Positions 9,359 through 56,026 of a DNA stretch of 64,000 bases are shown here, in pieces. Under the pieces are notes generated by a model. That model ran no database searches, was not told where the DNA came from, and was given only the letters and a program-made list of their open reading frames with translations. This stretch comes from Leuctra nigra (taxonomy: Eukaryota > Arthropoda > Insecta > Plecoptera > Leuctridae). The stretch spans positions 41,316,672-41,380,671 of the forward strand of contig OW203763.1 of assembly GCA_934045905.1 (NCBI GenBank), in the 5' to 3' direction. The number at the start of each line of letters is the position of its first letter. Position 1 is the first letter of the stretch. The translations under genes and the position numbers were made by a program.

Positions 9359-9363
9359 AAAAG

Positions 9364-9493
9364 TGTCATGTACTGTCGTGAACTGTTAGTTGCCCGAGTG
9401 GCCGCTACTAGCGCGCCACCCCAGTTCCGGATACGAGCCCTCATGTCTGGGACACTTCACCTTGAGCTACAGTCGCGATCAGACCTACTTCCC
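9364..9493 (+). repeat. Gypsy-1 5' LTR, truncated
   Basis: It starts TGTCATGTACTG like the 3' LTR. It shares CCAGTTCCGGATACGAGC and the GTCGCGATCAGACCTACTTC segment with 13302-13365, then breaks off into RT coding sequence. It contains about 36 bp (around 9382-9418) that the 3' LTR lacks. Confidence 0.85.
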
Positions 9494-26741: not shown

Positions 26742-26840
26742 AATTAGACCATTGCAATGTTAATAAGTTACTCTATGTTAATCAATCAGGTTTTAGAGAC
26801 AGTCATTCATGTGAGACTGCAGTACAGCTACTAATGTCAA

Positions 26841-27286
26841 GATTAGATTAGATTAATAGGGTTTAACGGCGCGCCAACGACGAGGTTATATTGCGCACGT
26901 TAATTATTTTACTTTAAACTTTGTTGAATTAAGTGGAGGACATTGGGAGGGGGTTGACCTAACGGGCCCGATCCAGGGGAGTCCAGCACTGGTGGGAAGG
27001 CCAGGCCGCAATGGGGACGGATCGGGGGGTGTGTGGATTCGGGCCGGCGGAACCCGATTTCAGGGGGATCACCATCTCGAGGGGGAAGGCCGGCCCGATG
27101 GGGACCGCAAATTCAAGGGAGGACATGGTTAGGCCAACCCTGGCTGCTCTTTGTCTGGACCTCACCACTGACCTGTCCGGCATGGGTAGCCCTTACACAT
27201 GAGCATATGCTCGCCGGCGTAGCTGCAATGGATCATTGGCCAACACAAACCCCACCACCACGATAAGGTGGCAGCCGTCGGTGGGG
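26841..27286 (-). mobile_element. R450 retroposed repeat, copy 3
   Basis: The GATTAGATTAGATTAA tail is at the left and the CCGACGG-type head at the right. A 12-bp duplication TACTAATGTCAA lies at 26829-26840 and 27287-27298. It splits the RT of LINE B2 right after SCETAVQLLMS. Confidence 0.9.
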
Positions 27287-32860: not shown

Positions 32861-32867
32861 AAGCCAG

Positions 32868-33264
32868 TATAACGTTTGCCCCTTCTTAACGGTGGAGTGG
32901 GGTGGGTGGGGAACGCTGGCGGACGGGGATGGGCGCCACGTGCTTCTGGGGCACGAAGAAGCACGAAGCTCGTCCAACAAAACACCTTGAACACAATCAC
33001 ACTTGAACAATACTTTTAATAACTCTTAATCCCACAGCACAAGTCGTCGTAAGACAGTCCGACAAATAATAATGATCAACACTCTTTCTCTGTACAAAAA
33101 TTAGTTGCCTGCGTCGGCTTCTAGAAACGTCTCTCTGACAACACACAACACAACCAGTTCCGTCGCTGGCCGGTCAACAACTCCCGAGCCCCTGCTCGAG
33201 CGCGTGAGGGGTTGTATGACCGGTTGACCTCGGGAGGCCGCCCTCCCTCAGTTTACATGTTACA
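32868..33264 (-). repeat. Gypsy-2 3' LTR
   Basis: This is the left copy on the plus strand and the 3' LTR in element sense. It carries the ACGTTTGCCCCTTCTTAACG segment shared with the right copy at about 37839. Next to it, the minus strand reads AAAAGAGGAAAAGGTGGAG (about 33268-33290), the polypurine tract used to prime plus-strand DNA. Confidence 0.9.
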
Positions 33265-33296
33265 AACTCCACCTTTTCCTCTTTTAAGAATTTATT

Positions 33297-36200
33297 TTAT
33301 AAATTATCTTCTGCTTCGGGCGTCGCATCCGGCTTGAGATCTTGTACGTGCCACATGGTTGGAAGTACTCGCCCATCTTCCTCCCGCAGCTCGTAGACTA
33401 GGTTGAACACCCGCTTTTGGATGAAGCACCGCGTATACTTCGGTGCTAACTTCGCCCTGAAGTAGCGCGCGGCATCTGATTGGGGAAAAGTCTTTCTCCA
33501 AACAACGTCTCCTGGTTGAAATTGCAGTGGACGGCGCCGGAGGTTGTAGATCCGGCTGTTCTTCTCGTGGGCTCTTTGGAGTCTATCAGTAACCTCGGCG
33601 TAGAGTGTGGGTAGTTCCTTTAATAGTCCGGCCCGAGGTTCACGTGGACCCATCCTCGGAGCGTAACCATCTTCTTCCAACTTGCGGTACGACGTCCCTG
33701 ACAAGTATAGTTCTCGGCTAAAGTTGAGAAAAGCAGGTGTGAAACCCGTCGCTTCGTGTGTCGCCGTACAGATGGCGTGCCTCAACTGTGGTAAATTCTT
33801 GTCCCAACTCCGATGGTTGTTATTCACGTAAGACGCTATCATCGTCTTCAGGACGCGATTGATTCTCTCTGTCGGGTTCGCTTGCGGGTGGTAATTTGGA
33901 TTGTAAAGGATTTTCCCCCCATAGTCGGTAACTTTATTCACAAACTGTTTACTGGTGTACTGAGTTCCGTTGTCGCAGATCACATATTGGGGAGCTCCAT
34001 ACACGAGAAACACTTCATGCTCCATGATTTGGGCTATCTTCTCTGCAGTTGCAGTTCGTAGCGGAAAGAGTAAGGTATATTTGGTGAAACAGTCTGCAAT
34101 CACTAACAGGAACCGGTTTTCTTTAGAGGACACAGGGAAAGAGCCCATCAAATCTGTGGAGATCATTTGCCAAGGATTAGTGACTTCCCGTTGGCTTCCC
34201 ATCAATCCCGCTGGTAGTTGTTGCACCGGCTTGAGGGATTGGCAGACAGAGCACTGCTGAACATAACGACTGATGTCGGCGGCCATGCCTGGCCAGTAGT
34301 GCGTTTCCGATATCCGCTTGATTGTCTTGTATGTTCCCAGGTGTCCCGCTGTCGGCCGATCATGGTACTCTTCTAGGATACTTCTCCGAAGTGATCTCGG
34401 GACTACCATTCTCCAGCCTTCGTCTTCTGGAGTAAGCAGGAACTGTTTTTTTCTTCGTAGTAACCGCTTCCACAACTTGTCGTCTTCGCCCTTCCAGTTA
34501 GGATAATTTTGAGGACTATCCAGGACTTTCTTGAGTTGTGCCGTATACCAGTCATCGTGGTCGTCCTTGGTGATTTCAATCGACTCCAGAAGTCCCACGG
34601 ATCTAGACAAGGCATCCGGTACAGCATGGTTCCTCCCGGGTCTCTGCAGAATTTCGAACGAGTACTGTTGCAGTCTTATTGCCCAACGAGCGAGCCGTCC
34701 TCTCGGGTCTTTGAGATTGTGAAGCCAGATTAAGGAATGATGGTCCGTGATGACTGTGAATGGAGAGCCTTCCACATACGGTCTAAATTTCTCTACTGCC
34801 CAGACCACCGCTAAGCACTCCAATTCCGTGGTGGTGTAGACCCGTTCACTCTTCGTCAATGACCGGCTGGCATACGCAATGACCTTTTCTCCATCTTCAA
34901 ACTCTTGTGAGATAACTGCTCCCAGACCCACTTCTAAAGCGTTAGTTTGTATCAGAAATGGCCGGTTGAAGTCGGGACAGGTAAGGAGTGGAGCTTCTAC
35001 TAAATGACTCTTGATTTGTCGAAAAGCCAACTCATGCTTTTCCTCCCACTTCCAGGGCGGATTCCTTTGGCCCTTTCGCACCCCTTTAGTCAACTCATTT
35101 AGTGGCACCATTTTCGTGGCGAAATCTGGTACGAATCGTCGGTACCAACTTGCCAGTCCAATGAAACGTCTAACTTCATTAACATTCTTGGGCGTCGGGT
35201 AGTTAATCATCGCCGCAACCTTTTCAGTGTTCACGCGTAAACCCCCCTCATCAACCATGTACCCAAGGTACTTCAACTCTGACCGGCCAAATTGACATTT
35301 GTCCTTATTTTATGTCAGACCCGCCGCCTTCAACTTCTGCAACACCTTCTGTAGAACCTCGAAGTGTGCTTCAAAAGTAGGAGTCACAATTATCACGTCA
35401 TCTAGATACACAAATACGTGGGGATCTAGTTCTGGGCCCAATACTCGGTCTATTAAACGTTGCCACGTTGCTGGAGAGGCATGCGCCGGATTTGGAAAAG
35501 ACCCCGGCCCGCCACTGCAAATGCCGTCTTTTCCTTGCTCTCTTCTTCCAGGGGCACTTGCCAATACGCCGTTTTCAGGTCGAGGGAGGACATGTACCTT
35601 GCATTCCTTAACCGGTCCAAGATAGCTGACACGTACGGCAAAGGATATGCGTCACGTTTGGTCACTGCATTCACTCTTCTGAAGTCTATGCATACCCTAT
35701 AGGCCTTGGAATCTGGTTTCTCTACTAGCATAATAGGCGAACTCCATGCACTGGTTGAAGGTTCGAATACTCCGTCCCTTAACATTTCGTCGAGTTCCTT
35801 ATTAATCTGCTTCTGTATGACCGGTGAATAAGGGTAGTACCGCTGTTTGATGGGAGCAGCATCTCCTGTATCTATCTTATGATGCACTAAACCGGTTACC
35901 CCTAGCTTATCCTGTGGGAGAGCCATCAAATCTGTCACCATCTTCTCCAACTGACTTCTTTCCTTGGGTGAGAGTCTGTCCTTGATTTGAGTACACTCGG
36001 CTACCCGGGGTATTTCTCCACTGTCACTAAAGGTCCAGGTACCCTGCGCTACATCGGGGACAAACCTCATTGTCTTCCAAAAGTCGATCCCTAAGTATAG
36101 GGCACGCTCCAGGGATGGGACTACTAGAATTGGTAAAACTTTTACTCTCCCATCTAATTCAATCGGCAGATCAGTCTCTCCTAACACTTGACAAGAACGT

Positions 36201-36427
36201 CCATCAGCAACGCGCACCATACCTGCTTCCATTTTCCGAAGAGGAGGATGAAGTGATTCGATCTTCTCCCAGCCGCCCCGACCAAGAATCGTTCTTGATG
36301 CTCCGGAATCCAGAAGACCCTGCATGGCTATCCCCAACACGTGTACCTTCAGGCTAGGCCGACTATCATTCCCTGCCGATGCCAAGATATGGTCCAGCTT
36401 GGCTCGAATACTAAGATTGGCTACCAC
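33297..36427 (-). pseudogene. Gypsy-2 pol: protease, RT, RNase H, integrase
   Basis: Read from 36427 down, the protease has LLDSGASRTILG. RT has VCIDFRRVNAVTKRDAYPLP and SSLDLKTAYWQVPL. A frameshift near 35480 separates this from PATWQRLID and VFVYLDDVIIV (catalytic pair). A TAA at 35312-35310 then breaks the frame; from 35276 a 659-codon frame continues with RNase H (IQTNALEVGLGAVISQ; TELECLAVVWAV) and integrase. The integrase HHCC motif has CSVCQSLK, and the DDE residues sit in ISTDLMGSF, VICDNGTQ and NPTERINR. A GPY-like C-terminal end follows (PGDVVWRKT). Two lesions block expression. Confidence 0.92.
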
Positions 36428-36492
36428 GTCTAACCAGTCACACCACTCTTCGTTTGGAGGCGAACATATCAGCTTTGCATGAGAAGTCCGCC

Positions 36493-37801
36493 TTACCCTC
36501 GACCCGCTGCTGCTTTTCCCGTACGTTCACGGCCAGGGATACAATTTGGCTTCAAAACGTTCGCTGCACCACAACCATAACAGAACACTGACCATTCTGC
36601 CAAACAGTCGCGATAGGTGTGGTCGGTACCTTGACAGTTCCAACATGGCCCTCTGCTGCCTCTCGAGGTCGCTGTGGAGACGTCCGCTAGATTCTCTTCC
36701 TGCACCGCTCCGACGGTTGGACCTGGACGATCTGGGAGTCGTCGGCGTCCATGGTAGGCCAGGTCAGGTTCGATAGAATCCTTCTGCTGCACGGGATGCT
36801 GAAATTTGCGAACCCGTTGCCGGCTGTACTCCAGCTTCCGTCCCAGGCTAAGAAGGTCAGACACGGACTCGATCTGTTGCAAACTTAACCTGTCTACATA
36901 AAACGGGTCCAAGTTCTTCCGAATTATACTTAGCTGGATGGATTCGGCCAAAGGTGTCTGCAGCCGCGCCATGTAGTTCCTCATGAAGGCGATGTAGATT
37001 CCGATGGTTTCCTCCGGTCCTTGAGTTCGCTTCTTAATTTCGTCGAGTAACTCCTCGTCATAGTCGGGTGATAGGAACTCTTTTCGTAGTTTTTGCGTGA
37101 GATCTGCCCAAGAGCCGAGCTGCCGCCATATTGGATCGGTACCATACTAATGCTGAGCCGTCGAATAAATCCATTGCTTCCACTAGTAAGTCTTCCTTCG
37201 ATCGTAGTCTGGACTCACATAATTCTTCTATGCGTTCCAGGAAGGCGCTTACACTCAACCCTCGGCCGTCCCCAGTAAAGGTAACTCCCCAGTCTCTGGC
37301 TGGAACATACTTTTTCCTAGCACTGGTCTCGCCGGTCGCTAACTTAGCCAAGGCATCTGACAAAGTTTTATTGGCCGCCAATATCGCTAACGGATCTGAC
37401 AGCAGTTTTTCCTTAAGCTTGTCCCCGCACTTGGCTGCTTCCTCTATCAGCTCCGTTCGTCTCTTACACACGTCCGCGATGAGTCCACTCACCCTTCCAA
37501 GCCGGCGCAAGATATGTCCCAAACGTGTTTCTATTCGTTTGTATTCCGAATCCGCCTTGGACGAACCGCTGTAGTTGGTAATCGCTGTATTCAGGTCCGC
37601 TAATTTTATCTTGCACGTTTCTAGCTCCTCTTCCGGATCCAGAGTGGTTTCTTGCGGGCAGGTGCTCTTCCCCTCCTTCTCGGCCTTGAGGGCCTGGGCG
37701 AGGACAGGTTTCATGTCGGCAACGGTGGTCAGTCCCTCGCCTAGTCCGCGTATCTTCAACTCATACTCAATTTCGTCACGCGTCAGTCGTGTATAGTCCA
37801 T
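36493..37801 (-). pseudogene. Gypsy-2 gag with CCHC zinc knuckle
   Basis: Gag starts at 37801 with MDYTRLTRDEIEYELKIRG, a few bases inside the primer site. It has a coiled, charged matrix-like region, a capsid-like segment (LFDGSALVWY, LRKEFLSPDYDEELL) and a C-terminal knuckle CWNCQGTDHTYRDC, followed by CYGCGAANVLKPNC. A frameshift near 37110 splits it. The open frame extending upstream to 37966 is LTR read-through, not the true start. Confidence 0.85.
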
Positions 37802-37813
37802 TTTCAAAATTTT

Positions 37814-37831
37814 GCCCCACGTTGGGCGCCA
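37814..37831 (-). promoter_or_regulatory. Gypsy-2 primer-binding site for tRNA-Lys
   Basis: The minus strand reads TGGCGCCCAACGTGGGGC directly after the 5' LTR. This is an 18-nt exact complement of the 3' end of the fly tRNA-Lys(CTT) as I remember it, including CCA. It primes minus-strand cDNA. Confidence 0.85.
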
Positions 37832-38230
37832 GTTATAACGTTTGCCCCTTCTTAACGGTGGAGTGGGGTGGGTGGGGAACGCTGGCGGACGGGGATGGGC
37901 GCCACGTGCTTCTGGGGCACGAGGAAGCACGAAGCTCGTCAAACAAAACACCTTGAACACAATCACACTTGAACAATACTTTTAATAACTCTTAATCCCA
38001 CAGCACAAGTCGTCGTAAGACAGTCCGACAAATAATAATGATCAACACTCTTTCTCTGTACAAAAATCAGTTGCCTGCGTCGGCTTCTAGAAACGTCTCT
38101 CTAACAACACACAACACAACCAGTTCCGTCGCTGGCCGGTCAACAACTCCCGAGCCCCTGCTCGAGCGCGTGAGGGGTTGTATGACCGGTTGACCTCGGG
38201 AGGCCGCCCTCCCTCAGTTTACATGTAACA
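37832..38230 (-). repeat. Gypsy-2 5' LTR
   Basis: This is the right copy on the plus strand and the 5' LTR in element sense. It begins TGTTACATGTAAACTGAGG on the minus strand and ends CGTTATAAC before the primer site. It holds the promoter and polyadenylation signals by family convention; I could not pick out a TATA box with confidence. Confidence 0.88.
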
Positions 38231-38417
38231 CCAGCCATCTTCCAACATCGGACAACGTCAGGGGGAGCTATCAACATCCTCGATGCAGCCGCCGTGTGTT
38301 TGTATCCTACCATTCAACACAAATGAATCGCGCCTCGGGGGAAGCCAGCCATCTGCCAACATGGGACAACGCCAGGGGGGGGGGGGGGGGGCGATAAACA
38401 TCTTCGATGCAGCCGAA
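38231..38417 (+). repeat. LINE D ORF1 minisatellite, left part
   Basis: About one and a half units continue the array across Gypsy-2 (CCAGCCATCTTCCAACATCG, then ATCAACATCCTCGATGCAGC). A run of 17 G lies at 38375-38391. The array is broken at GATGCAGCCG (about 38417) by the L2-like LINE and resumes at 42361 with GCCGCCGGGTG. Confidence 0.82.
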
Positions 38418-41195
38418 GATCGACACTATCGATACTACGATCGATACTTCGATACTAAATCACTCTACATGGACTTTCATTCACTTTCAGTCGAGCCCAC
38501 GTCTAGCTATCTCATTAGACTTGAAGGCCGCACTGTTGCTTGGGCCACCACTACTAAATTCCTTGGGGTAATCATCCATTCTTTCTGTATAGATAAAGTG
38601 TTTGAATGCACTGGTGTGACTTGGAAGCATTCTACCTCGTCCTCGTCCACCATGGTGGTCCTCTCCACATATCGTTCCCCTTCAGCAGACGCGGCAACCT
38701 TCCTCAGTATCCTAGAGCGTGTTCTTATCAGTGTGACCAAACAGTTCCCAAAAGCTCACCTTACGGTCTGCGGTGACTTCAACATCGACATACTGGTACC
38801 TTCCAAGATCACCACAACGTTCCTGGATCTTCTCCACTCCTTCCATCTCACAGAAACCATTGCCTCCCCCACTCGGATCACTCTGAGCACCTCCACCCTT
38901 ATAGACAATATATTCACCACTCTCAACCAGTCCGCCTACTCCGCTTTCCTATTTGACAGCGGACTCTCAGACCATATGGCCCTTACCCTTTCTCTTAACA
39001 TACCGCCTTCTCTAGACGAACCGGATCATAAAATCCAGAAGAGAATCTTCTCCGAGGCCAATTCCAACAAATTTCACTCCCTACTCCAAGAAGAAGCCTG
39101 GGAACACCTCTCCTCGTCCCCGGATGTCAATGACATGTACTCCACTTTCATCGACACGTTCCTATCCCACTTCAATCAGGCCTTTCCCTTCAAAAAGACG
39201 AAAAAATCTCCCAATCCCACAAAGAGATGGATCACTGCTGAAATCCTTCAGACGGCAGACGAGCTTCGTAGCCTACATCTCCTCCTCAGAACCAATCCTA
39301 GCTGCCATATCCTGAAGTCCAAAGATCACTCCCTTAAGAAATCCCACAGCAAAAACATCCGTCTCACCAAGCGCCTATTCTTTGACAATCTCATTGAAGC
39401 CTCCAACAATAGATCCAAAACCTCCTGGAACATTATCAAAACTCTTTCCACGCCAACTCAACATCCCACTAACCTCATGCTTCTCATCAATGGCAAAGAG
39501 ACAACTGAGCCACTCACCCTGGCCAATCAACTGAACGACTTCTTTGCCCGTCGACTTCTTTGCCCGTGACGTTGCCCCTCTTGTCCACAGCCATTCTGTC
39601 CCATCTACCGCCGGTGACCAGCTCCACTTGTCGCCTACCTCTCTCCCTCCGTCCCACTACGCCGTACGAACTGATTCATCTGGCCAAATCCATGCGTGCT
39701 AAGTTCTCCAGTGGTCCAGATGGTGTTCCTGGTTCTGTGCTAGCAAGATGCATGGCTCATGTTGCTGAGCCTCTCTCCCACATTATCAACCTCTCACTCT
39801 CCTCTGGCATCTTCCCCGATCAACTCAAAAAGTCTCACATCATCCCTATCCATAAAAAGGGAAAGAAATCTGACATTAACAACTATCGACCCATATCTCT
39901 CCTCTCTTCTTTCTCCAAAATCATTGAAAAAGTCATCCTAGACCGTCTGACCTCCTATCTCTCAGACCACTCCATCCTTGCCGACTGCCAACATGGCTTC
40001 CAAAAACGTAAATCTACAGGTACGGCAATATACCAATTCCTCACCACACTCCATGCTGCACTCGACAAGGGGGACCACTCAATAGGCCTCTTCTATGACT
40101 TGTCGAAGGCATTCGACACCATCGACCACTGCCTCCTCCTTCACAAGCTGGAGCTCTGTGGCATAACGGGTCTGGCCAATCGACTGATATCCTCTTTCCT
40201 AACCAACCGCTCGCAGACAGTGATCATCCCTTCCAATAAACCGCGCTCTCCATCTCTCATCACCTCCTCCTCTAAACTAATTCGCTGCGGTGTCCCTCAA
40301 GGTTCCGTTCTTGCTCCAACACTCTTCCTCGTCTATGTGAACGACCTCACTGACCTCATCACCAACGGCAACCTCTTTCAGTTCGCTGATGATACGAACC
40401 ACCTCCTTACAGCTCCTAAATCCAAATCATTCCTTTCCCTCATCGAGACAGCCAATGAGCAGGCAGCAATCATGTCATCTTACCGCTCTCCAACCCTCCA
40501 AAACAACCTTCATCAACTTCCACACTCAATCCCACAAGCCGTCTATCTCTCCCCTAATCCGCATCAATGACCACATTATTCCGAGCACCCCATCCATAAA
40601 ATTCCTGGGCATCCATCTAACTGCTACCCTCAATTGGTCTACGCACATCCAACACACGGTCTCCAAAATCCAGAGTAGCTGCTTCCTACTACGCCGACTC
40701 AAGCCCATAGTTAACGCCCATTCCCTCAAACTGGTCTACCACGCTCATTGCCATTCCCATCTCTCCTATGGACTCCTCTTCTGGGGCACCTCTCCCGGTG
40801 CCAACCGCATTTTCATCCTGCAGAAACAGGCAGTCCGCATTATTGCCGGCATCGCTCGCCGCAAGTCTGCCAAACCGGAGTTCATTAAGTTCATCCTGAC
40901 TCTCACCTACACTCTCATCCGTATTGCCAGCTCCTTTGCTCGTGAGCACCCAACCCTCTTCCCCCTAAACTCGTCAGTTCATCAATATGGCACTCGAGGG
41001 GGAAACTCCATACGTATCCCCACTCACTCTCACTCCTCATTCACTAGCAGCCCCCACTATATATGCACAATTATCTATAATAAGCTACCCCAGCACATCA
41101 CCACCTCTTCCACCTGGGCCAGCTTCCAATCCAGTCTCAATGCCTACCTCTTCCTAAACCAATTCAACAGCCTGCAGGAATTTCTAGACTCATAA
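38418..41195 (+). pseudogene. L2-like LINE ORF2, two frame breaks
   Basis: Segment 1 (to about 39551) holds the endonuclease: VVLSTYRSPSADA, TVCGDFNIDILV, SGLSDHMALTL. It continues into the RT connector (SKTSWNIIKTL). A 16-bp tandem duplication (39536-39567) shifts the frame; without it the protein runs on as LNDFFARDVAPLV. Segment 2 (39568-40500) is RT: SGPDGVPGSVL, NYRPISLLSSFSK, FYDLSKAFDTIDH, CGVPQGSVLAPTLF, QFADDTNHLL. A second frameshift near 40500 leads to segment 3, ending HYICTIIYNKLPQH...LQEFLDS at 41195. All catalytic motifs survive. Confidence 0.88.
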
Positions 41196-41544
41196 CTGTA
41201 CCAGCACTTCAGTGTCAATCATCTTAACCTCAAGCACTCTCGTTCCATTGTTCTTCCTATTCAACTATCGGCCACGTACTACACGGCATTGTCTTAGCCT
41301 AGGCGATTTATTCATTTATTTATATTTATTCTATGTAATCATTTTTATTTTTATTTTTCTTAGGTATAAATATTACTATTATTAGTTTTAATATTTACTG
41401 TACATATAACTGTCATTGTAAACATTGTGACTTGTAAATATTTCTGACTTTGTCATAACTTGTACATACATTCTTGACGATACCCATACATGTATTATGT
41501 ACTTGTCCACGGGATGATAATAAAATACAATACAATACAATACA
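38418..41544 (+). mobile_element. L2-like LINE, nearly full coding region
   Basis: The element has endonuclease, RT and C-terminal domain, a ~350-bp 3'UTR, and an AATAC repeat tail at about 41522-41544 after CACGGGATGATAATAAAAT. It is 5'-truncated in the endonuclease. It sits inside the LINE D minisatellite and is the best-preserved LINE in the window. A fragment of the same family is in Gypsy-1 at 10604-11575. Confidence 0.85.
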
Positions 41545-42360
41545 GCGATCACCTTGACTGGACACCCCATATTAAACAGGTTGCCTCTCGCCTAGCTAGT
41601 GGATGCTTCATGATTCGTAGATTGAAATCCATCGTTAGCCACTCAACTCTCCTCACAGTATACCATTCACATGTGCACTCTCACATCTCTTATGGCATCC
41701 TATTCTGTGGCCAGTCCAATCACTTTGAAAGAATATTTATACTTCAAAAACGAGCGGTGCGCCTAATTGCAGGACTTTCACGACGGGTATCATGCAGGAC
41801 TTACTTCGCCAACCTTGGCATCTTAACAGTTGCAAGTACGCTGATCCTAGAGGCAGCCTCCTATGTGCAAAACCATCCTTCTCAATTTGTTGTGAATTCT
41901 GCTATTCATGAGCACACCACCAGGACCATTAACAGTCTGCATGTACCAAGGCACAACCTGTCGCTGTATAAAAAGAGTCCACACTATATGTGCATTACTA
42001 TTTACAACAAATTCCAGCAGCTTGGCTTTAAAATCCTACTTGCAGACAAAATAATTTTATAGTGTGGGTGATTTCTTAATGTCATAAACTGCTAACTGTC
42101 AACCCTTTATCTCATGTTATGCATAACTTTGTGAAGTGATGATTTGTCTTGAACTCTAGTTGTGTGAATATCTTTTTACCCCCAATCAATTGTGTGTAAT
42201 GTTGTTGTTGTTGTTGTTGATTTGTATTATGTTTATTATTGAATCATTGTATCAATAATTTGTGAGTGTATTTATATTTTGTACTGTAACGCAATGAACG
42301 CTGCCCATATCAACACTCTGTGTTGGTCTACGGGAAATAATAAAATCTAATATAATCTAA
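41545..42360 (+). mobile_element. Second L2-like LINE 3' end
   Basis: This is the C-terminal RT domain of a related but distinct family: LDWTPHIKQVASRLASGCF, HSHISYGILFCGQSNHFER, SPHYMCITIYNKFQQL, ending at 42061. A 3'UTR follows with a GTT microsatellite (42198-42219), then CTACGGGAAATAATAAAATC and a TAATATAATCTAA tail at 42360. It is 5'-truncated exactly where the previous LINE tail ends. Confidence 0.8.
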
Positions 42361-43430
42361 GCCGCCGGGTGTTGGTATCCTACCATTCAACACAAATGAA
42401 CCGCGCCTGGGGCGAAGCCAGCCATCATCCAACATCGGACCACGTCAGGGGGGGGGGCCTATCAACATCCTCGATGCAGCCTCCAAATGGCTTTATGCCA
42501 CAATCCAACACAAATGAACCGCGCCTGGGGCGAAGCCAGCCATCATTCAACATCAGACAACGTCAGGGGGGGGGCTATCAACATCCTCGATGCAGCCTCC
42601 AAATGGCTTTATCCCACCATCCAACACAAATGAACCGCGCCTGGGGCGAAGCCAGCCATCATCCAACTTTGGACAACGTTAGGGGGGGGGGGGCTATCAA
42701 CATCCTCGATGCAGCCTCCAAATGGCTTTATCCCACCATCCAACACAAATGTACCGCGCCTGGGGCGAAGCCAGCCATCATCCAACATCGGACAACGTCA
42801 GGGGCGGGGGGGGGCTATCAACATCCTCGATGCAGCCTCCAAATGGCTTTATCCCACCATCCAACACAAATGAACCGCGCCTGGGGCGAAGCCAGCCATC
42901 ATCCAACATCGGACAACGTCAGGGGCGGGGGGGGGGCTATCAACATCCTCGATGCAGCCTCCAAATGGCTTTATCCCACCATCCAACACAAATGAACCGC
43001 GCCTGGGGCGAAGCCAGCCATCATCCAACATCGGACAACGTCAGGGGGGGGGGCTATCAACATCCTCGATGCAGCCTCCAAATGGCTTTATCCCACCATC
43101 CAACACAAATGAACCGCGCCTGGGGCGAAGCCAGCCATCATCTAACATCGGACAACGTCAGGGGGGGGGGCTATCAACATCCTCGATGCAGCCTCCAAAT
43201 GGCTTTATCCCACCATCCAACACAAATGAACCGCGCCTGGGGCGAAGCCAGCCATCATCTAACATCGGACAACGTCAGGGGGGGGGCTATCAACATCCTC
43301 GATGCAGCCTCCAAATGGCTTTATCCCACCATCCAACACAAATGAACCGCGCCTGGGTCGAAGCCAGCCTTTATCCAACATCGGAGACAGGGTCGGCGAG
43401 AGCGACCAACATCTTCGATCCGGCCTACGG
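42361..43430 (+). repeat. LINE D ORF1 minisatellite, nine ~118-bp units
   Basis: About nine units, each with TGAACCGCGCCTGGGGCGAA, GCCAGCCATCATCCAACATC and CTCGATGCAGCCTCCAAATG, plus a G-run of 7-13. Translated, a unit reads QPPNGFIPPSNTNEPRLGRS then QPSSNIGQRQGGG. Changes in G-run length alter the frame, so the long frames at 42369-42995, 42722-43345 and 42952-43434 are parts of the same array in different phases. They are not separate genes. Confidence 0.88.
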
Positions 43431-43436
43431 GTGATT

Positions 43437-44260
43437 TTTTTCCAACATTCCAACCTCCATGGTCAGTACCAGGGAGATAGCTCATTTTCATCGCCAGTCA
43501 TTATAGGGAATTTACATTTTCATTCATTGCCAGCTAATAATTCAATTGACAATCTCCAAATGCGAGAGCGTAACCATTTTTTAGGGTATCACCCAACAGT
43601 ATGGCCAAACCCATTTCTAAATCAAATAAATCTCGAACTTGCAACTTACGTCTTAATAAAGATTTGACAAAAGTAAACATTTTACACCAAAATATTCAAA
43701 GCCTAATTAGCTCAAAAACAAATCAGGAAGTGTTTCTTGATGAACAGTTTAATCTTTCAGAAAAAAAATGATGTATTATGCTTATCTGAGCATTGGCTTA
43801 GGGAGTTTGAAATAAATCTAGTTAACATTAATAATTACAAAAGCATAAATTCATATTGTAGGTTATATTTAAAACATGTGGGAGTGGCTATCTATATACA
43901 TGAAAATAACCAATTCAAGGTTAAACCTATTGGATATTAATAAATGTAGTGTGGAAGGAGTTATAGAAATAACGGGCGTAGATTTAGTTATTGAAAACAG
44001 GGGAAACAAAAATAGCAATATTAAAGTAAAGTAACTGATTATTGCCCTGTACCGACCACCTTCAGGAAATATTGATGAATTTGTTAATATTCTCCACGCT
44101 ATTCTGGAAAAGAATGTGAAATCTTTGAGTGAAATAATAATCCTTGGTGATTTCAATGTTAACACCATGACTGAATCAGAAAATAACTTTAAATTAGTCG
44201 GCCTACTTGAATCATTTAATATTATCCTAACTATAAAGTCTCCAACAGAATAGATTCACA
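43437..44260 (+). pseudogene. LINE D ORF1 C-terminus and endonuclease start
   Basis: ORF1 ends with RERNHFLGYHPTVWPNPF and a stop near 43667. The endonuclease follows at about 43672 (KVNILHQNIQSLISS), with frameshifts near 43740, 43790 and 43930. It then reads LYRPPSGNIDEFVN at about 44050 and LGDFNVNTMT (metal-binding block) at about 44145. It stops at about 44250 in KSPTE, before the second half of the domain. The same order of minisatellite and FLG(Y/H) tail is seen in LINE E. Confidence 0.68.
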
Positions 44261-45809: not shown

Positions 45810-46632
45810 TTGGGGCCATTGTCCGCCCCATTTATAAGAAGGGTGAACATAATAGTTTTTCTAATTATCGTCCAATAGCGATTTTGTCAATCATAGATAA
45901 AATAATGGAGCGTTGCATATCTTCAAATATCTAACCGTATAGAGAAATTTAATATTATTAGTAACTTACAGTTTGGTTTTCAAAGGAATAAAGATACTAA
46001 TTACCTCCTGTTGCAATTTACAAATTTTGTGAATACAAAACTGAATAATAATGAGATTGTTTTGGCTCTGTTTATTGACTTCTTTAAGGTGTTTGATACT
46101 ATTAACCATAATCTCATTATTTTACTTGAAAAAATTGGCGTTAGAGGTCCTATGTTAACTTGGTTTATAGATTATTTGCATGAACGATTAATGAAACGAT
46201 TAATGAACGATTACTGTTGAATTAAAATATATCTTAAGTGTTTTAATGCCTGTAAATTCGGGTGTACCGCAAGGTTCAATTTTAGGACCCCTTTTGTATC
46301 AATATGCTCCTTTGTCTAGAGAAGTGCCATATATTTATGTATGCTGATGACATATTAATTTTATCATCCAACTTTAACTTCGATGTTGCAGTATCTTCCT
46401 TGCAGTCTGGTTTCAACCAACTTTTAAAGCTGTCACATGATCGGGACTTAATTTTTAATGCTGATAAGACCAAGATCTTGCACATTTGTACACCTCTAAA
46501 TCAGTTTAGAGACAGTTCTGTCAATATAATTTGTCACTCGGCGACACGTTTGCACACTTTGCAGTACAGCAATCCTTTTCTAATTTGTGATTGTGTTATT
46601 AAAATTAGTGTTGTTGAGCAGATTGTTCATCT
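45810..46632 (+). pseudogene. LINE C reverse transcriptase, first part
   Basis: Fragments in changing frames: RPIYKKGEHNSFSNYRPIAI at about 45825, LQFGFQRNKDTNYLLL, ALFIDFFKVFDTINHNLIIL (palm, one Asp), GVPQGSILGPLLY at about 46262, and MYADDILILSSN at about 46337 (catalytic pair). It continues with NADKTKILHI. A small duplication, ATGAAACGATTA, lies at about 46191-46207. The sequence is cut at 46634 by the TIR element and resumes at 54573. Confidence 0.78.
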
Positions 46633-46634
46633 TA

Positions 46635-48180
46635 GTCCAGCTGCTAAGTGCCATTTTACATCACAATTCGGGGTTTAGTGATAAAAGCGTGGATTTTGGA
46701 TATGTTGTAAAAAAATAAAAACTATTCGATTTGACTCGAGAGGAAACTTCATAACTACCCCGTTCGGGGGTGGCAAGGGTTCAAAGTTTTGGGGATGATT
46801 TCATATAAATATTAATTTAAATGAACTGTACACATGTAATATATCAATTAACATGCGATAAATTGTAAAAAGGTTCAAATAATATATAAAAAATTTAATA
46901 TTGCACGAAATGTGTAGAGGGGTGATAATTTTTTACCCTTTGCCTAATATTTACTATCTTCCACATTTATGAAGCGATTTCAAGTTTTAAGCATTCAATC
47001 GATACATAAAATTACATAGATTCATGTTATGATATTTGATTTTGATTTGCAACGACCTACCCCCGCTAGGAGGTGGCAAGAGTTCAAATTTAGGGGGATG
47101 ATTTAATTTTAATTTTAATTTACAATGAATAGTACAAATAATGATGTTACTTAACATGCAATTAATTGTAACAAGGTCCAAATTATATACAAAAAATTTA
47201 AAACTGACCAAAAATATTAAGGGTTTGCCAAAATTCCACCCCTTGCTCTATATTTACTATCTTCCACAATTATGATGCGATTTACTGCTTTAAGGATTCA
47301 ATCGATAGATAAAAATACATAGATTCATGTTATGATATTTGTTTTGTATATTGGAATGACCTACCCCCCGACGGCTGTCACCTTATCGCGGTGGTGGGGT
47401 TTGTGTTGGCCAATGATCCATTGCAGCTACGCCGGCGAGCATATGCTCATGTGTAAGGGCTACCCATGCCGGACAGATCAGTGGTGAGGCCCAGACCAAG
47501 AGCAGCCAGAGTCGGCCTTACCATGCCCTCCCTTGAATTTGCGGTCCCCCCCCCCCCCTCGGGCCGGCCTCCCCCTCGAGATGGTGATCCCCCTGAAATC
47601 GGGTTCAGCCGGCCCGTATCCTCACACCCCCCGGTCCGTCCCCATTCCGTCCTGGCCTTCCCACCAGTGCTGGACTCCCCCGGATCGGGCCCGTTAGGTC
47701 GACCCCCTCCCATTGCCCTCCAATTATGATCAACAAAGTTGAATATAACAAATAATGTGCGCAATATAACCTCGTCGTTGACGCGCCATTAAACCAAACT
47801 TATCTTATCTATCTTGGAATGACCTATCCCTGCTAGGGGTGGTATGGGCTTAAAAATTGGGGGATGATTTCACTTAAATATTAATTCTAATGCATTGTAC
47901 AAATAATGTTTGCCTCTTTAAATTGTAACAAGGTCCACATAACATGTACACAATTTACAATTTCATATTGACCAAAAAGTGTAAGAGGGTGGTAAAAATC
48001 TACCCCTTCGCTCCTTGTTTTTCTTCAACTTCCTCATTTGTGGACCGATTTCAAGTTTTGAGCATTCAATCTATAGATAAAATTAAATAGATTCATAAAA
48101 TGATGTTTGTTTTATGTTTTGAGTGACCTTGTGATATTTGGATTACACCCTCTTACTAGTTTAGGGGTGAAAATGTGCTA
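46635..48180. repeat. Left TIR of the long-TIR element, three ~303-bp units
   Basis: Three diverged tandem units make up the arm. Each has a GGGGATGATTTCA block (about 46791, 47093 and, across the R450 insertion, 47859), a TTTACTATCTTCCACA block, and ATAGATTCATGTTATGATAT. The arm is interrupted by R450 at 47364-47813. It ends in AGTGACCTTGTGATATTTGG and CTAGTTTAGGGGTG. Confidence 0.85.
47364..47813 (+). mobile_element. R450 retroposed repeat, copy 4
   Basis: It has the same head and tail as copy 1. The 13-bp duplication TTGGAATGACCTA lies at 47351-47363 and 47814-47826. It inserted into the left TIR arm; the right arm lacks it, so it came after the element had two matching arms. A C-run of about 10 at 47547-47557 is specific to this copy. 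Confidence 0.92.
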
Positions 48181-48675
48181 TATTTTCCTTTTTACCATAA
48201 CCATAATTTTTCAGTTGTCTCCTGACTTCTGCTATGTGCTATAACGCCCAGCAATGAGAATATAAACCTACTTGAATTCGAATTACTGGTCGAATATGCA
48301 GAAAGATCTGCTATAATCTCGACCCTTGTATTAGATTGTTTGACAGCGCTATATACGCTAGCGGAGATGCCGGAATTAATCGTCAAGTATCGTTAAGTGC
48401 TGTCAACGGCATGAGCTGTCATATGCCAATTTTTAGGTTATGTATTGTGTAGTGAGTATAATAAGTAAGTGAAAACACCAAATTAACACGTTAATTATAA
48501 AAACTAGTAAATTAAACACACTTTGTATCATATTGTGAACTCTTTTCTTTCATTTGATCGTTATCAGATGTTCTTAATTATAATTGTTTACATGTGATTG
48601 TGAACTATGGTTACACGCTAAACGCCCGATCCAGTTTAGACGTCTGAGTGTGATACCAACATTGATTTTGCAAAT

Positions 48676-51600
48676 ATGGATCCTTCTGGTGGTACTAATT
48701 GGACTAAATGTGTTTTATGTCAAGATACAACTACCGAAAAGTTAGTGTGTCCAATTCAAAATCCTATTGCAAATACGGCTTCTGGATTCGTATTTCTTGG
48801 TGACGACCTGATTAATTTTCACAAGGCTGGACGTTTGCCGATATCTTTGAATATCAGTCGTCTCAATGATGGCAGTGGAATCCATGAGACATTGCGTAAA
48901 AACTCTGCCAAATGGCATAAGAACTGTCGTCGCAAGTTCCATAACAGTTTTTTTAATAATAAGAGAGCCTTGCAGAGTTCGCAGTGTATCGCGCTGCCAA
49001 GTACTTCTGATGAGACAGAGGATGGTCCAACGTCAACAAAAAGGGCATCGACCAGGTCAGAAGTTTCAAATGTGAACGCAATGACGAATGTTTTTTTATG
49101 TGTGGTGCGGCAGATCCTTCTGATCATTTACATCTCGCAATGACTCTCAAAATCCATCATAAAGTTCTAGCATGTGCAAAAGAACTAAATGACGAGAGGA
49201 TTATTGCAGCCCTAAGCGCAGGCGATATGGTTGCGATTGATGCCAAGTATCATAAGAAGTGTTTGGTACATTTTTATAATCGCCGACGTGCCCTTGTAAA
49301 TGACATGAAGAAGAAAGAACACGCGAAAGTTTTGCTCTGGCTGAGCTCTTTTCGTTTATTGAGAATAAGAAATCGAACCCAGAAATATCACCGGTCTTTA
49401 AACTGACTGATCTTGGATGCACCTATTCCAAAATATTAGAACAATTTGGGATTGTGTCCAAAATGCGAAACACAGATCTTAAAGATAAAATTCTTGCTCA
49501 TTTTCCCGGAATAGACTCATTTAAATCGGGAAGAGAAATCCTTCTGGCGTTTAAAGATTCTGTGGGCAGTGTTTTGCACGACGCGTATGGCAAAGATTAT
49601 ACCAAGGAAGCTGTACTGATTGTTAAAGCTGCTGCAAAGATTCGCCGAGACATTCTTCAAAAAGAAATACAATTCTCTGGCAAATTTGATGAGAAAACTC
49701 GAAAGGAATCTGTGAAAGAATCACTTCTATACTTTCTTTCTTTGATTCATAAAGGACCCAGCTATGAAAACCAAGTTCAAACCGAGGCAACTCAGATTGA
49801 AGCTGTTAGCTCCATTGGACAATTGATAGTGTTCAATTGTAATGTTGATCGACGCCGGTGTTTGCGACGAGAACCGCTCCTGCCAGCTTAAATTGGACTA
49901 TCAATGCATTCTCCAACTCGGAAGAGGCGAATCATTGACTCACTTTCCAGGCTTGGACTTTCCATCACCTATGACAGAGTCCTGGACATCTCGACCCGTC
50001 TCGGTGTTAGCATTAGTAACATGTACAAGGAGGATAATGTTGTGTGCCCTCGACATCTTCTACGCGGTGTTTTCATCACAGGGGCGGCGGACAACGCCGA
50101 CCTGACCACAATCCGTCCTCTACAACATCCAAGGAGTCTTTCCATGGAACTGTGATTCAACTGAGCTCACATCCCAGCATTACCAACCCTGGAGTACAAC
50201 GAGAAGCAATTTACCTCGATAGAAATTCTTTGACTTCGAAGTGCATTCCGCATCTACCAGAGTTTTACACAGATATAACTCCATTGATGAAACTTTTTGA
50301 TAAACCAGCACCTGGAGTGAAGTTTACATTGCCCGATGTTCAAGCTGAGGTTTTAACTCTAAGGGAGAATGAATGGCTTCGTCACGTGTCAAATGTGTTG
50401 GAAGTTGAGGGCGCTGACACTAACGTGTCTTGGTCAGCATTCAATGCTCTCCAGATTCCTTGGAGCCAATGACAATTTGCGGGATGTTACCAATATTTGA
50501 AGAACAAGCCCACAACTCAGCCATGATCCGTCATGCTATGAATGTCATCAAATCAGCAACCAGTTAACTCAATCCCAACCAAACTCCAGTCATAACACTT
50601 GATCAACCTCTCTTTGCCATAGCCAAACAACTTCAGTGGAATTTTCCTGATTTGTACGGAGAGGACAGGTTTGTTGTGATGTTCGGAGGACTTCATATTG
50701 AGATGGGCATCTTAAAAATGCTAGGATGCCTGCTTGATGGCAGTGGCTGGGTGGAAGCGATTACCAAGGCTGACATTGCTCACCATGGAACAGCCGATTC
50801 TTTCATCCGTGCGGTTCATGTAACGAAAACAAGAAGAGCCCATCAAATCACTTCCGCAGCTCTGTACATTCTGCAACAACACGCATATGCCGAGAGCAGT
50901 GCCTTCGATGAAATCAGCTTTGAAGATTGGTGTCAACAAAGAGAGAGTGAATCTCCTCAGTTCAAATTCTGGTCAATGATTTTGAGGCTGCAACTTCTCC
51001 TCTTTGCATTCATTCGATCCATTCGTGAGGGTGATTTTAGTTCCTACAAAGAAACGCTACCCTTAATCGTCCCGTGGTGTTTTGCCACGAATCGAGTCAA
51101 CTACTCCAGATGGTTAACAATTCATCTGTGAGATATGTTGGCTCTGCAAGTCACAAGTCCCTCGACTTATCAAGAGTTCTGTAATGGAAACTTTGTAGTA
51201 AGAAAGTCTAAAAACCCCTTCTCAGCAATGTCGATTGACCAGGCACTCGAACAGACCAACGCAATAATCAAAGGCGATGGTGGAGCAATCGGGATTTTAC
51301 AAGCGCCCAATGCCCTGCGGCGCTGGATGGTTGTGGGACCAGAGATAACAAACATGTTGACACAGTACGAGGCAACTACCACTGACAGTCATCATCATCA
51401 TCACGAACAGAATCTGAGCTTTCAAAAATCCTTCTCAAGTGATATCAACAACCTGATAAGTACTATGAGAGAATTTGGAAATCCGTTTGAAGAAACCAGC
51501 AATGATCTATTTCGCATTCACAACAAAGAAATAATGTCTGAGCCAACTGTACAGACAATAGCGACCCTTGAGTGTATTGGCAGAGTCAAGATGAATGAAT

Positions 51601-53145
51601 ATATCACCACACGTCTCCAAGAAACCAATCCTCTTCCTGTATCAGCGGTCATTAAAAAAACGAAACTCCAGCTTTTCGGTACCGCTACTAAAAGAAGAGC
51701 ATCAAAGCAGCAGCTTCAAGTGACGTCTCTGAAAACGGATTGTGCTCTCTTTGCCAAGTTTTACATTGGCTGCCAAACAAGGAATGGAGACTTGGATAAG
51801 TTTTTCCAATATGAAAACAACCCGTGTCCACCATCGATCTCGCACGACGGTGAGCTCAGAAGCGGCAAGAAGTCCTACATCATCAATTGCCTTGAGATGC
51901 TTCAAAAGTGTGAAGAAATCAGATCAATGGAACCTGAAGCAGTGTTGCTGGATGGAGCTGCTATTGTTAACATGGTGAAGCCCCAACAACATCTGAAGAC
52001 CTTTGGAGAGTATGCCAACCATGTATTTCTTCCTTTTATAGAGGCCCAGCTGAAGAAGGCTGCAAGGATAGACTTAATCTGGGACGTTTATCTGAAGAAT
52101 TCGCTGAAGTGCTGCACTCGACAAAAGCGAGGCAAGGGTGTCAGGCGAAGGGTTGAACCATCAAACTCCCTCCCAAGAAATTGGCAGGAGTTCCTACGAA
52201 CTGATGAAAACAAGACGGAACTGTTTGCAATGCTCGGTGATTTCGTTGAGAAGCTTGACCTATCACTGGGTGTTGTTGTTGTAACGAGCATTTAGTAACG
52301 ACCCAAATCTCAGCTTGGATACCATATCTCCCTGCACACACGAGGAGGCGGACACCCGCTTGGTTCTACATTTAGAACATGTTCTTCGTGGCACAGGAAC
52401 GGAGGTGATCGTTCGAACCGTTGACTCAGACGTCTTAGTACTGTGTGTGGTTGCTGCCAGTCGACATATCTCCACGAAAATATGGCTGAAATTTGGAGTA
52501 GGAAAGTCAGCGCGTGTCATTGCTGCTCATGAGATCTTCAGGACTCTAGGTCCCGAAAAAACAGAAGCCCTACCATTCTTCCATGCATTCACTGGAAGTG
52601 ATACTTGCTCTGCTTTTGCAGGCAAGGGCAAGAAGTCTGCATGGAAGGTATGGAATATCATGCCAGATATAACATCTGTATTTTCAGCCCTCTCCGGACC
52701 CATTGACGCTGTCGACGATGAAATGCACGCTATGATTGAGAAATTCGTTGTTACTTTGTACGACCGAACCACGACTCTAACATCCATCAACCTCTGCAGA
52801 CGCGAGCTTTTTACGCAGAAGAGTAAGCCAATGGAGTCTCTTCCCCCGACAAAAGACGCGTTAACGCTGCATACACTGAGAGCGACGCTGCAAGCGGGGT
52901 TAATCTGGGGGTCGGCTGCAATCGCGTCTCCACCACCTCCCAATCCAGCTGTCTGGGGCTGGATGAAGAACGAAGATGAGCTTTGGGAGCCAAAGTGGAC
53001 AACTCTTCCAGACTCCATACGCTCGTGTGCAGAAGTCATCATCTGTAAATGCAAGATCAACTGCAGAGGCGAAGAGTGTCCATGCATGATCAGCAACCAG
53101 TCCTGCTGTGCATCCTGCAAATGCCGAGGGGATTGCAGCATGTAA
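48676..53145 (+). pseudogene. Candidate transposase of the long-TIR element (uncharacterized metazoan family)
   Basis: One gene of ~1,490 codons can be followed through five frameshifts (about 49080, 49335, 50100, 50465, 52290) and three stops (TAA 49889-49891, TAA 50565-50567, TGA 51129-51131). The N-terminus has CVLC and WHKNCRRKFHN, a zinc-finger-like pattern, then a second CFFMCG...KYHKKCLVHFYNR pair. The middle shows MHSPTRKRRIIDSL, HNPSSTTSKESFHGT, TLDQPLFAIAK, MFGGLHIEMGILKMLG and NPFSAMSIDQALEQTNA. The C-terminal third has LLDGAAIVNM, RIDLIWDVYLKNSL, EEADTRLVLH, TVDSDVLVL and FHAFTGSDT. It ends in a Cys-rich tail (CKCKINCRGEECPCM...CKCRGDC). From memory, this protein is common in cnidarians, molluscs, echinoderms and arthropods as uncharacterized. 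Its place between TIRs suggests a transposase; no DDE triad is proven. Confidence 0.8.
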
Positions 53146-53499
53146 CAGGAAACTGAAAAAATTTCGTCAACCTCCTATACAGTTTGTTCAAATTTTCTGT
53201 ACAATGATTATGGTGGTGAAGATGGCAACGAAAATGATGTACTACGCTAGCACCAACACAACAAAATGAAAATCAGCTAGAACTAGGTGGCACATTCAAG
53301 TTAGCGGATTTTATTTGGATAGTTTAGGTTGGCAAAGTGTGAATTCAGATGGAAAGTCTGGATGGTGCTGCTTATTTACACCCTAACGGCGTTGTAAGCG
53401 TAAATTGAACAGCCTATACGTACTGTGCACCACTTATGAAACTTCATCAATGTTCTCGATTTTTTGGTTGGCAATGCCCATGTCGATAGGAAATAAATG

Positions 53500-54572
53500 T
53501 GGCATATTTACACCCCCAAACTAGTCAGAGGGTGTCATCCTAATATCACAAGGTCACTCAAAACATGAAACAAATATCGTTGTATAAATCTATTTAATTT
53601 TTTCTATCGATTGAATGCTCAAAACTTGAAATCGGTCCACAATTTTGGAAGTTAAAGAAAAAAAAGGAGCGAAGGGGTAGATTTTTACCACCCTCTTACA
53701 CTTTTTGGTCAATATGAAATTGTAAATTGTGTACATGTTATGTGCACCTTGTTACAATTTAAAGAGGCAAACATTATTTGTACAATGCATTAGAATTAAT
53801 ATTTAAGTGAAATCATCCCCCAATTTTTAAGCCCATACCACCCCTAGCAGGGATAGGTCATTCCAATATACAAAACAAATATCATAACATGAATCTATGT
53901 ATTTTTATCTATCGATTGAATCCTTAAAGCAGTAAATCGCATCATAATTGTGGAAGATAGTAAATATAGAGCAAGGGGTGGAATTTTGGCAAACCCTTAA
54001 TATTTTTGGTCAGTTTTAAATTTTTTGTATATAATTTGGACCTTGTTACAATGAATTGCATGTTAAGTAACATCATTATTTGTACTATTCATTGTAAATT
54101 AACATTTAAATGAAATCATCCCCCTAAATTTGAACTCTTGCCACCCCCTAGCGGGGGTAAGTCGTTGCAAATCAAAATCAAATATCATAACATGAATCTA
54201 TGTAATTTTATGTATCGATTGAATGCTTAAAACTTGAAATCGCTTCATAAATGTGGAAGATAGTAAATATTAGGCAGGGGGTAAAAAATTACCACCCCCT
54301 ACACATTTCGTGCAATATTAAATTTTTTTAATATTATTTTAACCTTTTTACAATTAATCGCTTGTTAATTGATATATTACATGTGTACAGTTCATTTAAA
54401 TTAATATTAATATGAAATCATCCTCAAAACTTTGAACCCTTGCCACCCCCGAACGGGGGTAGTTATGAAGTTTCCCCTCGAGTCAAATCGAATAGTTTTT
54501 ATTTCTCTACAACATATCCAAAATCAACGCTTTTATCACTAAACCCCGAATATTTAGACTTAGCAGCCCGAC
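53500..54572. repeat. Right TIR of the long-TIR element
   Basis: This is the inverted copy of the left arm without the R450 insertion. The same three ~303-bp units and the same tips are present. Differences from the left arm are scattered single bases and short indels. Confidence 0.87.
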
Positions 54573-55092
54573 TATCTTGGGTTAACTGTGGATAGATTTT
54601 CCACCTGGAGGCCCCACATCGAGAAGGTTTGTAGTAAAATTAGATCTTGCGCGTTCTCCATTTATCGCCTGCAATTTTTTTTGCCTTTTAATTTATTACG
54701 TTCAGTGTATTCCGCACTTGTTGAATCGTACTTGTTATATGGGTTGTTAGCTTGGGGAAATGCTTCTGATTATTTCGTCTACATTATTGTCGCTTTGCAA
54801 GATAAAATTATTAGTACAATTGTTCCTAATCTCCTAAAACTCAATTTAGATTATAATATTTCCAGATATTATTTAGAATAATTTTCTACCAGTGCAATTA
54901 CTTCACAAAAAATTACAAAATCACCCAGTTAATACTCGCTTAGCATTGCTTCAAAAGTATTATATTCTTCCTTGGTGCAACAAGAATGGCAAATGTAGAC
55001 TTGATTATATTGTACCTATTACTTTCAACTTACTTCCTGATAATCAAAGATCTCATGAATCCTTCTCTAAACTTAAAATGTCTCTGAAATAA
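54573..55092 (+). pseudogene. LINE C RT C-terminal region
   Basis: Coding resumes after the TIR element with YLGLTVDRFSTWRPHIEKVC and continues ALVESYLLYGLLAWGNASDY. After a frameshift near 54880 it reads LLHKKLQNHPVNTRLALLQK, then YYILPWCNKNGKCRLDYIVP, and ends at 55092. It is the thumb and C-terminal region of the CR1-like RT begun at 45810. Confidence 0.8.
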
Positions 55093-55218
55093 TGGTTTTT
55101 TCTCGACTATGTCTACTGATTAGTTTAATTTTGTATGATTTAATTATGAGTGTGTATTTTGGTTAAATTGTTATATTTAAAGAATTCGCCCACTTCTAAT
55201 TTTAAAACCTGATTAATA

Positions 55219-56026
55219 GAGCGAGCGAAGCGTGCGTCTCCTTTTGGCTCTTTTGGCACGGACCTCTGTTTTTTTTTGTTTTTTTTTGTTACCTGACGAT
55301 ATAAAGATCAGAGTTTTTCTTCGATCGAGCTGAAATTTTGCACACATGTGGAGACAACCTTTTCTGTTTGCAGACCCCAAAATTTTTTGAAATCCATTCT
55401 TTGGCTAAAATTTAAATAAACATCTCCTGATGGTAGGTTGAAAAATGACAATGGTCTTCGATAAAACTGATAAAACTCATATTTTGGCTATACAGGTAAG
55501 TTTTTCTTCGATCGAGCTGAAATTTTGCACACATGTAGAGACAACCTTTTCTGTTTCAAGAACCTAATTTTTTTGAAATCCATTAATTGGTTAAAATTTA
55601 AATAAATATCTCCTGATAGGCTGAAAAATGAAAACGGTCTTCGATAATTCTGATCAAACTCATATTTTGCATGATCATTAAGACCAACATTGTCTCTTAT
55701 TTTACAAAATGTCATCCCAATCAGTTAAGAACGTATGACCTTATTGAAATTTTTGATATCTGTCAGTAATGAAGTATCGAAATGAATGTTTTCCAGTGCC
55801 AATTTTAATGAATCATCTGATTTTACTATATTAACCAGGGTGCTTAGATGCTATTTTCAAGTTTCGATGAAAAGTATTAAATACTTTTATGTTGATTTAG
55901 TGATCAAATTTCTATTCAATATGGATATGGATATATGTTTTCTGTGCGTTGTGTACGCATTTCCGGTTCGAGAATTTGCACGTACCCGTGCTCGCTCATC
56001 AACGCGTAACACTGAGCGTTTTCCTA
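55219..56026 (+). mobile_element. Helentron/HINE-like element, copy E1
   Basis: It starts GAGCGAGCGAAGCGTGCG, then TCTCCTTTTGGCTCTTTTGG and a T-rich run, and ends GCTCGCTCATCAACGCG, a hairpin (AACGC...GCGTT) and TTTTCCTAG. Inside, a ~187-bp module beginning TTCTTCGATCGAGCTGAAAT is tandemly repeated (about 55315 and 55502). No duplication is seen at the borders. It lies in the LINE C 3'UTR. ORFs in it are not real. Confidence 0.55.

Follow-up and report, generated by a model that had tools for sequence, protein, structure and literature searches.

Why does a long protein that mostly goes unnamed in sequence databases recur in so many animals? This question is raised by a 64,000-nt stretch of the Leuctra nigra genome (the window, whose numbering gives all positions below), in which a single decayed gene for such a protein lies between long inverted repeats. 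A sequence-only reading of the locus had suggested that this protein mobilises a lineage of DNA transposons, and our analysis agrees: copies of the gene are bounded by terminal inverted repeats (TIRs), and its product has a DDE triad and is predicted to fold like a transposase. The element is very probably a class II DNA transposon of the AcademX type (Academ superfamily), full-length and once autonomous but now decayed, which would have moved by the mechanism proposed below.

The element spans positions 46633-54574 (7,942 bp, TAGTCC...GACTA), its terminal repeats starting with TAGTCC and TAGTCG. Its ends are fixed by other genomic copies (TAGTCCAGC...GCCCGACTA), with one tip mismatch in the copy L016. 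As had been read from the sequence, the element breaks the reverse transcriptase coding of a long interspersed nuclear element (LINE), and the interrupted frame was found at both flanks. Joining the LINE flanks with a single TCT gave one uninterrupted frame (...VVEQIVHLGLTVDRFSTWRPHI...; ...VVEQIVHLGLTVDRFSTWRPHIEKV...), whereas joining them under a TA duplication shifted the frame. The LINE frame matched the Pfam model RVT_1 with an E value of 2.6e-5 and 24.5 bits, below the cut-off of 29.6; this match lies upstream of the junction only, so it is no test of the join itself. Because the LINE frame is restored and 3-bp target site duplications (TSDs) stand outside the tips of the other copies, we assign a 3-bp TCT duplication to this insertion. 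The TA duplication of the sequence-only reading was rejected, since TA lies inside the element end in all 17 two-ended copies described below and leaves the LINE out of frame.

Repeat finding over 46000-55500 and alignment of the arms bore out the inverted arms of about 1.1 kb with matching tips. The arms are collinear, with complementary blocks of 449 nt (98%), 381 nt (94%), 181 nt (92%) and 105 nt (92%), and align end to end except for a 446-bp extra insert in the left arm only. Each arm holds direct repeats of about 303 bp, in three copies. Elsewhere in the window, a search for further arm copies gave chance-level matches only. For all the decay of the gene, the inner parts of the arms are nearly identical (449 nt, 98%), against 92% for the outer 300 bp or so; the arms may have exchanged sequence by gene conversion, or the element may have been mobilised late in trans.

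When the tip was searched against the whole genome, 40 matches were listed, with 40 of 244 candidate places scored. In at least five cases two of these matches belong to opposite ends of a single element, and the copies therefore number fewer than 40. We fetched the best 20 after the window. The facing tip was present in 17 of them, in elements of 3.1-4.9 kb, and was absent from the stretch fetched at L011, L027 and L029. All 17 two-ended copies have exact 3-bp TSDs outside the tips, and the duplicated sequences vary (CTT, TAT, ATA, TAA, TCG, CTA, TAC, ACA, TTA, TTT, TAG, CAA). The same-genome copies with clear ends and duplications that the sequence-only reading had proposed to look for are thus at hand. 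The flanks of L012 and L020, which lie at about 318 kb and 563 kb of G000 C9, are identical, for which reason the two were counted as one insertion; this identity points to duplication of the surrounding segment.

Fourteen of the 17 are 3.1-3.4 kb long and internally deleted, the others measuring 3.9, 4.2 and 4.9 kb. Full arms were found in the two-ended loci that were compared in detail (L012, L018, L024 and L025), their best stretches being about 87-89% identical to the window arms. Part of the last 295 or so codons of the gene is retained in 16 of the 17 copies (none was seen in L019), mostly at 94-97% protein identity, with pieces at 85-97%; this refutes the view that the arms form an element unrelated to the gene. 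Pairwise identity among seven derivatives is 97.3-99.4% (99.2-99.4% for L021-L024), and therefore their spread was recent. Stop codons interrupt the retained 3′ gene piece at 8 of the 16 loci, and at five of the other eight (L014, L015, L018, L020 and L025) the piece matches only as two separate pieces. The short derivatives are for these reasons best read as non-autonomous. A repressor peptide made from them was considered and dropped on account of the same stops and splits, the piece being free of stops at L013, L016 and L017.

The single decayed gene that had been reported between the arms, at about 1,490 codons, was found again, at about 1,478 codons; reading through it takes five changes of frame and meets three in-frame stops. 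From conserved residues and structure prediction, we conclude that the protein of about 1,480 residues is, as modelled, a DDE transposase fused to an EXO1/FEN1/XPG-type 5′ nuclease. The DDE triad is conserved, and the predicted structure of the DDE part, a model of moderate confidence, had the P element, Transib and Hermes transposases as its top structural matches in VIA-align, while Foldseek alone returned no significant match for that part. For the nuclease part, an EXO1/FEN1/XPG-type fold is predicted over about 260 residues, with seven acidic positions. In the proteins scanned against Pfam and NCBIfam, no trusted match to XPG, PIN, KDZ, Kolobok or other transposase models was seen besides DUF6589 (PF20231) and CXC. 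DUF6589, a domain without transposase annotation, overlaps the DDE/insertion region in 12 of 29 members of the second clade of the tree described below (E≤1, best 2e-8) and was matched by 3 of 6 proteins at E≤5 in another scan, in which P0195 stood above the cut-off; its name was not found in the literature searched. No match was obtained by sequence profile against the PDB, nor with one piece queried against each of the phage and plasmid records, and viral contigs were not a source of relatives in our scans. Two sub-threshold matches, to DNA_gyraseB (window 49304-49891, E 0.0036) and to TNP-like_RNaseH_C (one of the 29 second-clade members, E 0.17), were taken as chance or uninformative.

Does the gene travel between inverted repeats elsewhere, as the sequence-only reading predicted? 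A protein query from window 51132-52295, searched against the host genome, matched 17 stretches. These represent the window, which alone showed the queried part at high identity, and about 14 places besides, at 25-61% identity, several of them with frames open for 896-1,571 codons. Five places were fetched with both ends (L037, L038, L039+L040, L041+L042 and L036), selected for their scores and long frames rather than by chance; the C4 place, whose rank fell within theirs, was left out and seen as a 4.1-kb piece (L035). Their proteins are 34-35% identical to that of the window over most of its length, or 24% in L036, and inverted repeats bound the gene in all five. The arms measure about 1.09 kb in L037 and L038 (97.6-97.8%), 726 nt in L039 (97%) and 943 nt in L041 (95%); L036 has shorter degenerate repeats only (67 nt, 78%; 27 nt, 89%). 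The tips, of the TAGT type throughout, read TAGTGGAGT in L037, L038 and L039 and TAGTCAGGGAACA in L036, and those of L041, which share TAGTG and little beyond, were placed by extending the arm alignment. Exact 3-bp TSDs (TTG, TGT, GAA, AAT, CAA) flank all five. As a control for L036, whose arms are the weakest, the flanks were shuffled 200 times; of the 124 9-mer pairs starting with TAG that arose, a single one had a matching 3-bp duplication. The tip scan of L041 also picked up an unrelated pair flanked by equal triplets (TAGCTTTCT, TTT), away from the arm ends. On the strands examined, the only frames above 300 codons inside these elements belong to this gene. That the long frames are working genes is not shown: those of L036, L037 and L039 stop short of the CXC tail, with similarity continuing beyond the frame end in L037 and L039, and L038 and L041 have one internal stop each. 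Beside the L036 element, a diverged one of the second clade, at 7539-9605 in gene orientation, lies a 689-codon frame that looks reverse transcriptase-like by eye, and this element, as the window copy, may have landed in a LINE.

Outside Leuctra, homolog searches at E≤0.001 gave 265, 336 and 91 matches, and among the matches listed (the best 120 of the 265 and the best 120 of the 336) the proteins are mostly unnamed, in keeping with the earlier statement that the protein is widespread in animals and mostly uncharacterized. Named proteins of full or nearly full length come from Branchiostoma, Capitella, a carp-like fish, Apostichopus, Strongylocentrotus, Patiria, Styela, Sycon and Nymphon, and shorter ones from Mytilus, Patella, hagfish, an octocoral, Ptychodera, Palaemon and others. 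Midpoint rooting divides a tree of 145 proteins, that of the window included, into 91 and 54; the window protein stands with Branchiostoma in the first group, and the named sources in the tree run from sponge to fish. Relatives are also encoded on two contigs of a prokaryote genome collection. One (L002), filed under a Bathymodiolus gill symbiont, has inverted tips TAGTAGGGTGCCC and a TTA duplication, both read by eye, and an inner repeat that scores 46, where 300 shuffles reached at most 30; it is probably mussel DNA. The other (L001) is filed under a Planctomycetota metagenome-assembled genome (MAG) and encodes a relative that shares 83% identity with a protein from sea cucumber. The suggestion that homologs in other animals also lie between inverted repeats thus holds for L002, with its 3-bp duplication, and finds nothing to compare in L001, whose contig begins inside the gene. 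Animal-like transposon DNA stands under prokaryote names in these two records, and P0303 likewise carries a Thiodiazotropha MAG protein name.

To which superfamily does the element belong? Academ is described as making 3-bp duplications (PMC5199201), and TSDs of 3 or 4 bp in AcademX and of 9 or 10 bp in AcademH have been linked to the nuclease of the former and the helicase of the latter (PMC10045372). The duplication here is 3 bp in the window, in 17 of 17 two-ended copies, in 5 of 5 gene copies and in L002. TIRs surround the coding gene in the window and in all five gene copies, the DDE transposase is present by triad conservation and VIA-align matches, and an encoded nuclease is present too. 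The AcademX nuclease is reportedly XPG, as attributed to Kojima in 2020, and we know of no other named superfamily that joins a DDE transposase, a nuclease and a 3-4 bp TSD. As far as the description goes, the element has in common with AcademX the DDE transposase, the associated nuclease, the 3-4 bp TSD, the TIRs and the animal hosts, but shares with AcademH little more than the superfamily name, the latter having a helicase and 9-10 bp TSDs in place of a nuclease and 3 bp (PMC10045372). No 9-10 bp duplication was seen, the TSD being 3 bp, and no helicase was matched by Pfam among the proteins scanned. Because a DDE transposase, a nuclease and a 3-bp TSD make up the published AcademX profile, we file the element there; the superfamily is most likely Academ, matched by described traits and not by sequence. 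The sequence-only reading, which could not name a superfamily, is superseded on this point. The arms of about 1.1 kb with internal repeats of about 303 bp are perhaps peculiar to the present family. The element is most likely a new family within a known superfamily, not a new kind. With the P element, Transib and Hermes it shares an RNase H-like DDE core and a helical insertion before the last E; their TSDs are 8, 5 and 8 bp, and they are not known to carry a nuclease domain such as the predicted XPG-type one here. With the XPG/FEN1/EXO1 (and XRN) 5′ nucleases it shares the predicted fold and the seven acidic positions, but here the domain is fused behind a transposase, and no Pfam XPG match appeared in the proteins scanned.

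Other explanations were weighed against the AcademX assignment. The strongest competitor, which we nevertheless regard as improbable, is an undescribed superfamily that merely resembles AcademX, the protein being its transposase and the pairing of DDE and 5′ nuclease having arisen independently. The likeness to AcademX is one of described traits, and Pfam offers DUF6589 at best for the DDE region and no named transposase; set against this, three AcademX traits (DDE transposase, nuclease and 3-4 bp TSD) coincide. It is far less likely that a transposon with its own transposase elsewhere has picked up a host gene here. The family does have many members, which stand among the ordinary gene models of many animals, but diverged copies, 24-35% identical to the window, each lie within TIRs and 3-bp TSDs, the gene supplies the only frames over 300 codons in those elements on the strands examined, and the protein itself has the DDE triad and a transposase-like predicted fold.

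Membership in KDZ, Kolobok, Zator, PIF/Harbinger or CACTA seems to us just as implausible. Zator, Harbinger and part of the CACTA elements likewise have TSDs of 3 bp, and the sub-threshold TNP-like_RNaseH_C match mentioned above might be counted in favor of this group; however, no other named transposase model was matched in the proteins scanned, the KDZ domain included, although a missing profile match is no exclusion. Harbinger inserts at TWA and Kolobok at TTAA, and the TSDs here are not confined to either; to our knowledge, no XPG-type nuclease occurs in any of the five. A Tc1/mariner-like element with a TA duplication can almost be dismissed: TA does adjoin both GTC tips, but it is part of the element end in every two-ended copy, the three bases outside it vary (TCG, CTT, ACA, CAA and others), and the LINE would not stay in frame with a TA duplication.

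Overall, we propose a putative mechanism for movement of the AcademX-type element. The N-terminal zinc clusters would bind the repeated units of the terminal arms. The DDE site, as its triad and predicted fold suggest, would then nick and join the transposon ends, and integration proceeds with a 3-bp stagger, as the 3-bp duplications show. The XPG/FEN1-type domain, to judge from its modelled fold and acidic residues, may process 5′ strands or flaps at the junction. Internally deleted derivatives, mostly of about 3.4 kb and with arms kept, have multiplied recently, presumably moved in trans. We further speculate, with considerable doubt, that the nuclease domain is the second-strand cutter: the DDE site would nick and transfer the 3′ ends, gap filling by the host would turn the donor flank at each transposon end into a 5′ flap, and the nuclease would remove this flap. 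In Tn7, the work is divided between two enzymes, TnsA and TnsB. If the flap model were true, the element would be a eukaryotic one-protein counterpart of that division, the helicase of AcademH would be explained as a substitute for the nuclease, and DUF6589 would be part of the Academ transposase catalytic core.

The mobile-element nature of the gene would account for the spread of an "uncharacterized" protein over many animals. A large family labelled "uncharacterized", "hypothetical" or "CXC domain-containing" would consist of transposases of one DNA transposon group, and its members would have to be left out of host gene counts. The locus gives a name to a common unannotated animal protein and presents a DDE-nuclease fusion, which is a testable idea for second-strand cutting in this transposon group, and the Leuctra nigra genome offers young derivatives beside long-framed relatives.

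Table. Features of the element and its surroundings in the 64,000-nt window
Feature	Position	Strand	Basis
Host LINE reverse transcriptase coding, upstream part, cut by element	45906..46632	+	open frame; RVT_1 match
TSD, left copy, TCT	46630..46632	.	LINE-frame join and other genomic copies
Left TIR arm, tip TAGTCCAGCTGCTA, ~1.1 kb plus 446-bp nested insertion	46633..48185	+	arm alignment
Nested SINE-like repeat (short interspersed nuclear element), body about 47368-47813, 17-bp flanking duplication TTGGAATGACCTAYCCC	47351..47830	+	in left arm
Decayed single gene, about 1,478 codons, predicted DDE transposase and XPG-type nuclease	48676..53145	+	read-through
N-terminal CxxC...HxxC and C...YHxxC Cys/His clusters, putative DNA-binding zinc fingers	48709..49262	+	
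DDE/RNase H-like transposase core (predicted)	50090..51260	+	conserved residues, predicted fold
DDE triad	D of DNAD 50090-50092; D of LDQPL 50598-50612; E of DQALEQTN 51237-51260		
XPG/FEN1-type nuclease acidic motifs LLDGAA, IWDVY, HEEADTR, VDSDV, TGSDT	51945..52605	+	
C-terminal Cys-rich tail; CXC / Tesmin-TSO1-like in part of relatives	53044..53145	+	
Right TIR arm, tip TAGTCGGGCTGCTA read inward, ~1.08 kb, three ~303-bp repeats	53495..54574	-	arm alignment
TSD, right copy, TCT	54575..54577	.	LINE-frame join and other genomic copies
Host LINE, downstream part, frame shared with upstream part	54578..54881	+	open frame
SINE-like ~445-bp repeat copies	11596-12031 (+), 13751-14186 (-), 26839-27281 (-), 47368-47813 (+)		

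The 446-bp insert of the left arm is a SINE-like nested insertion. The 17-bp duplication around it has one mismatch, and the three further copies in the window are 89-95% identical to it; by eye, the copies have TAATC-type tails and short flanking duplications of their own. Away from the element, G+C content is 0.455-0.507 per 4-kb block over 32000-44000, compared with 0.37 and 0.36 in the adjoining blocks.
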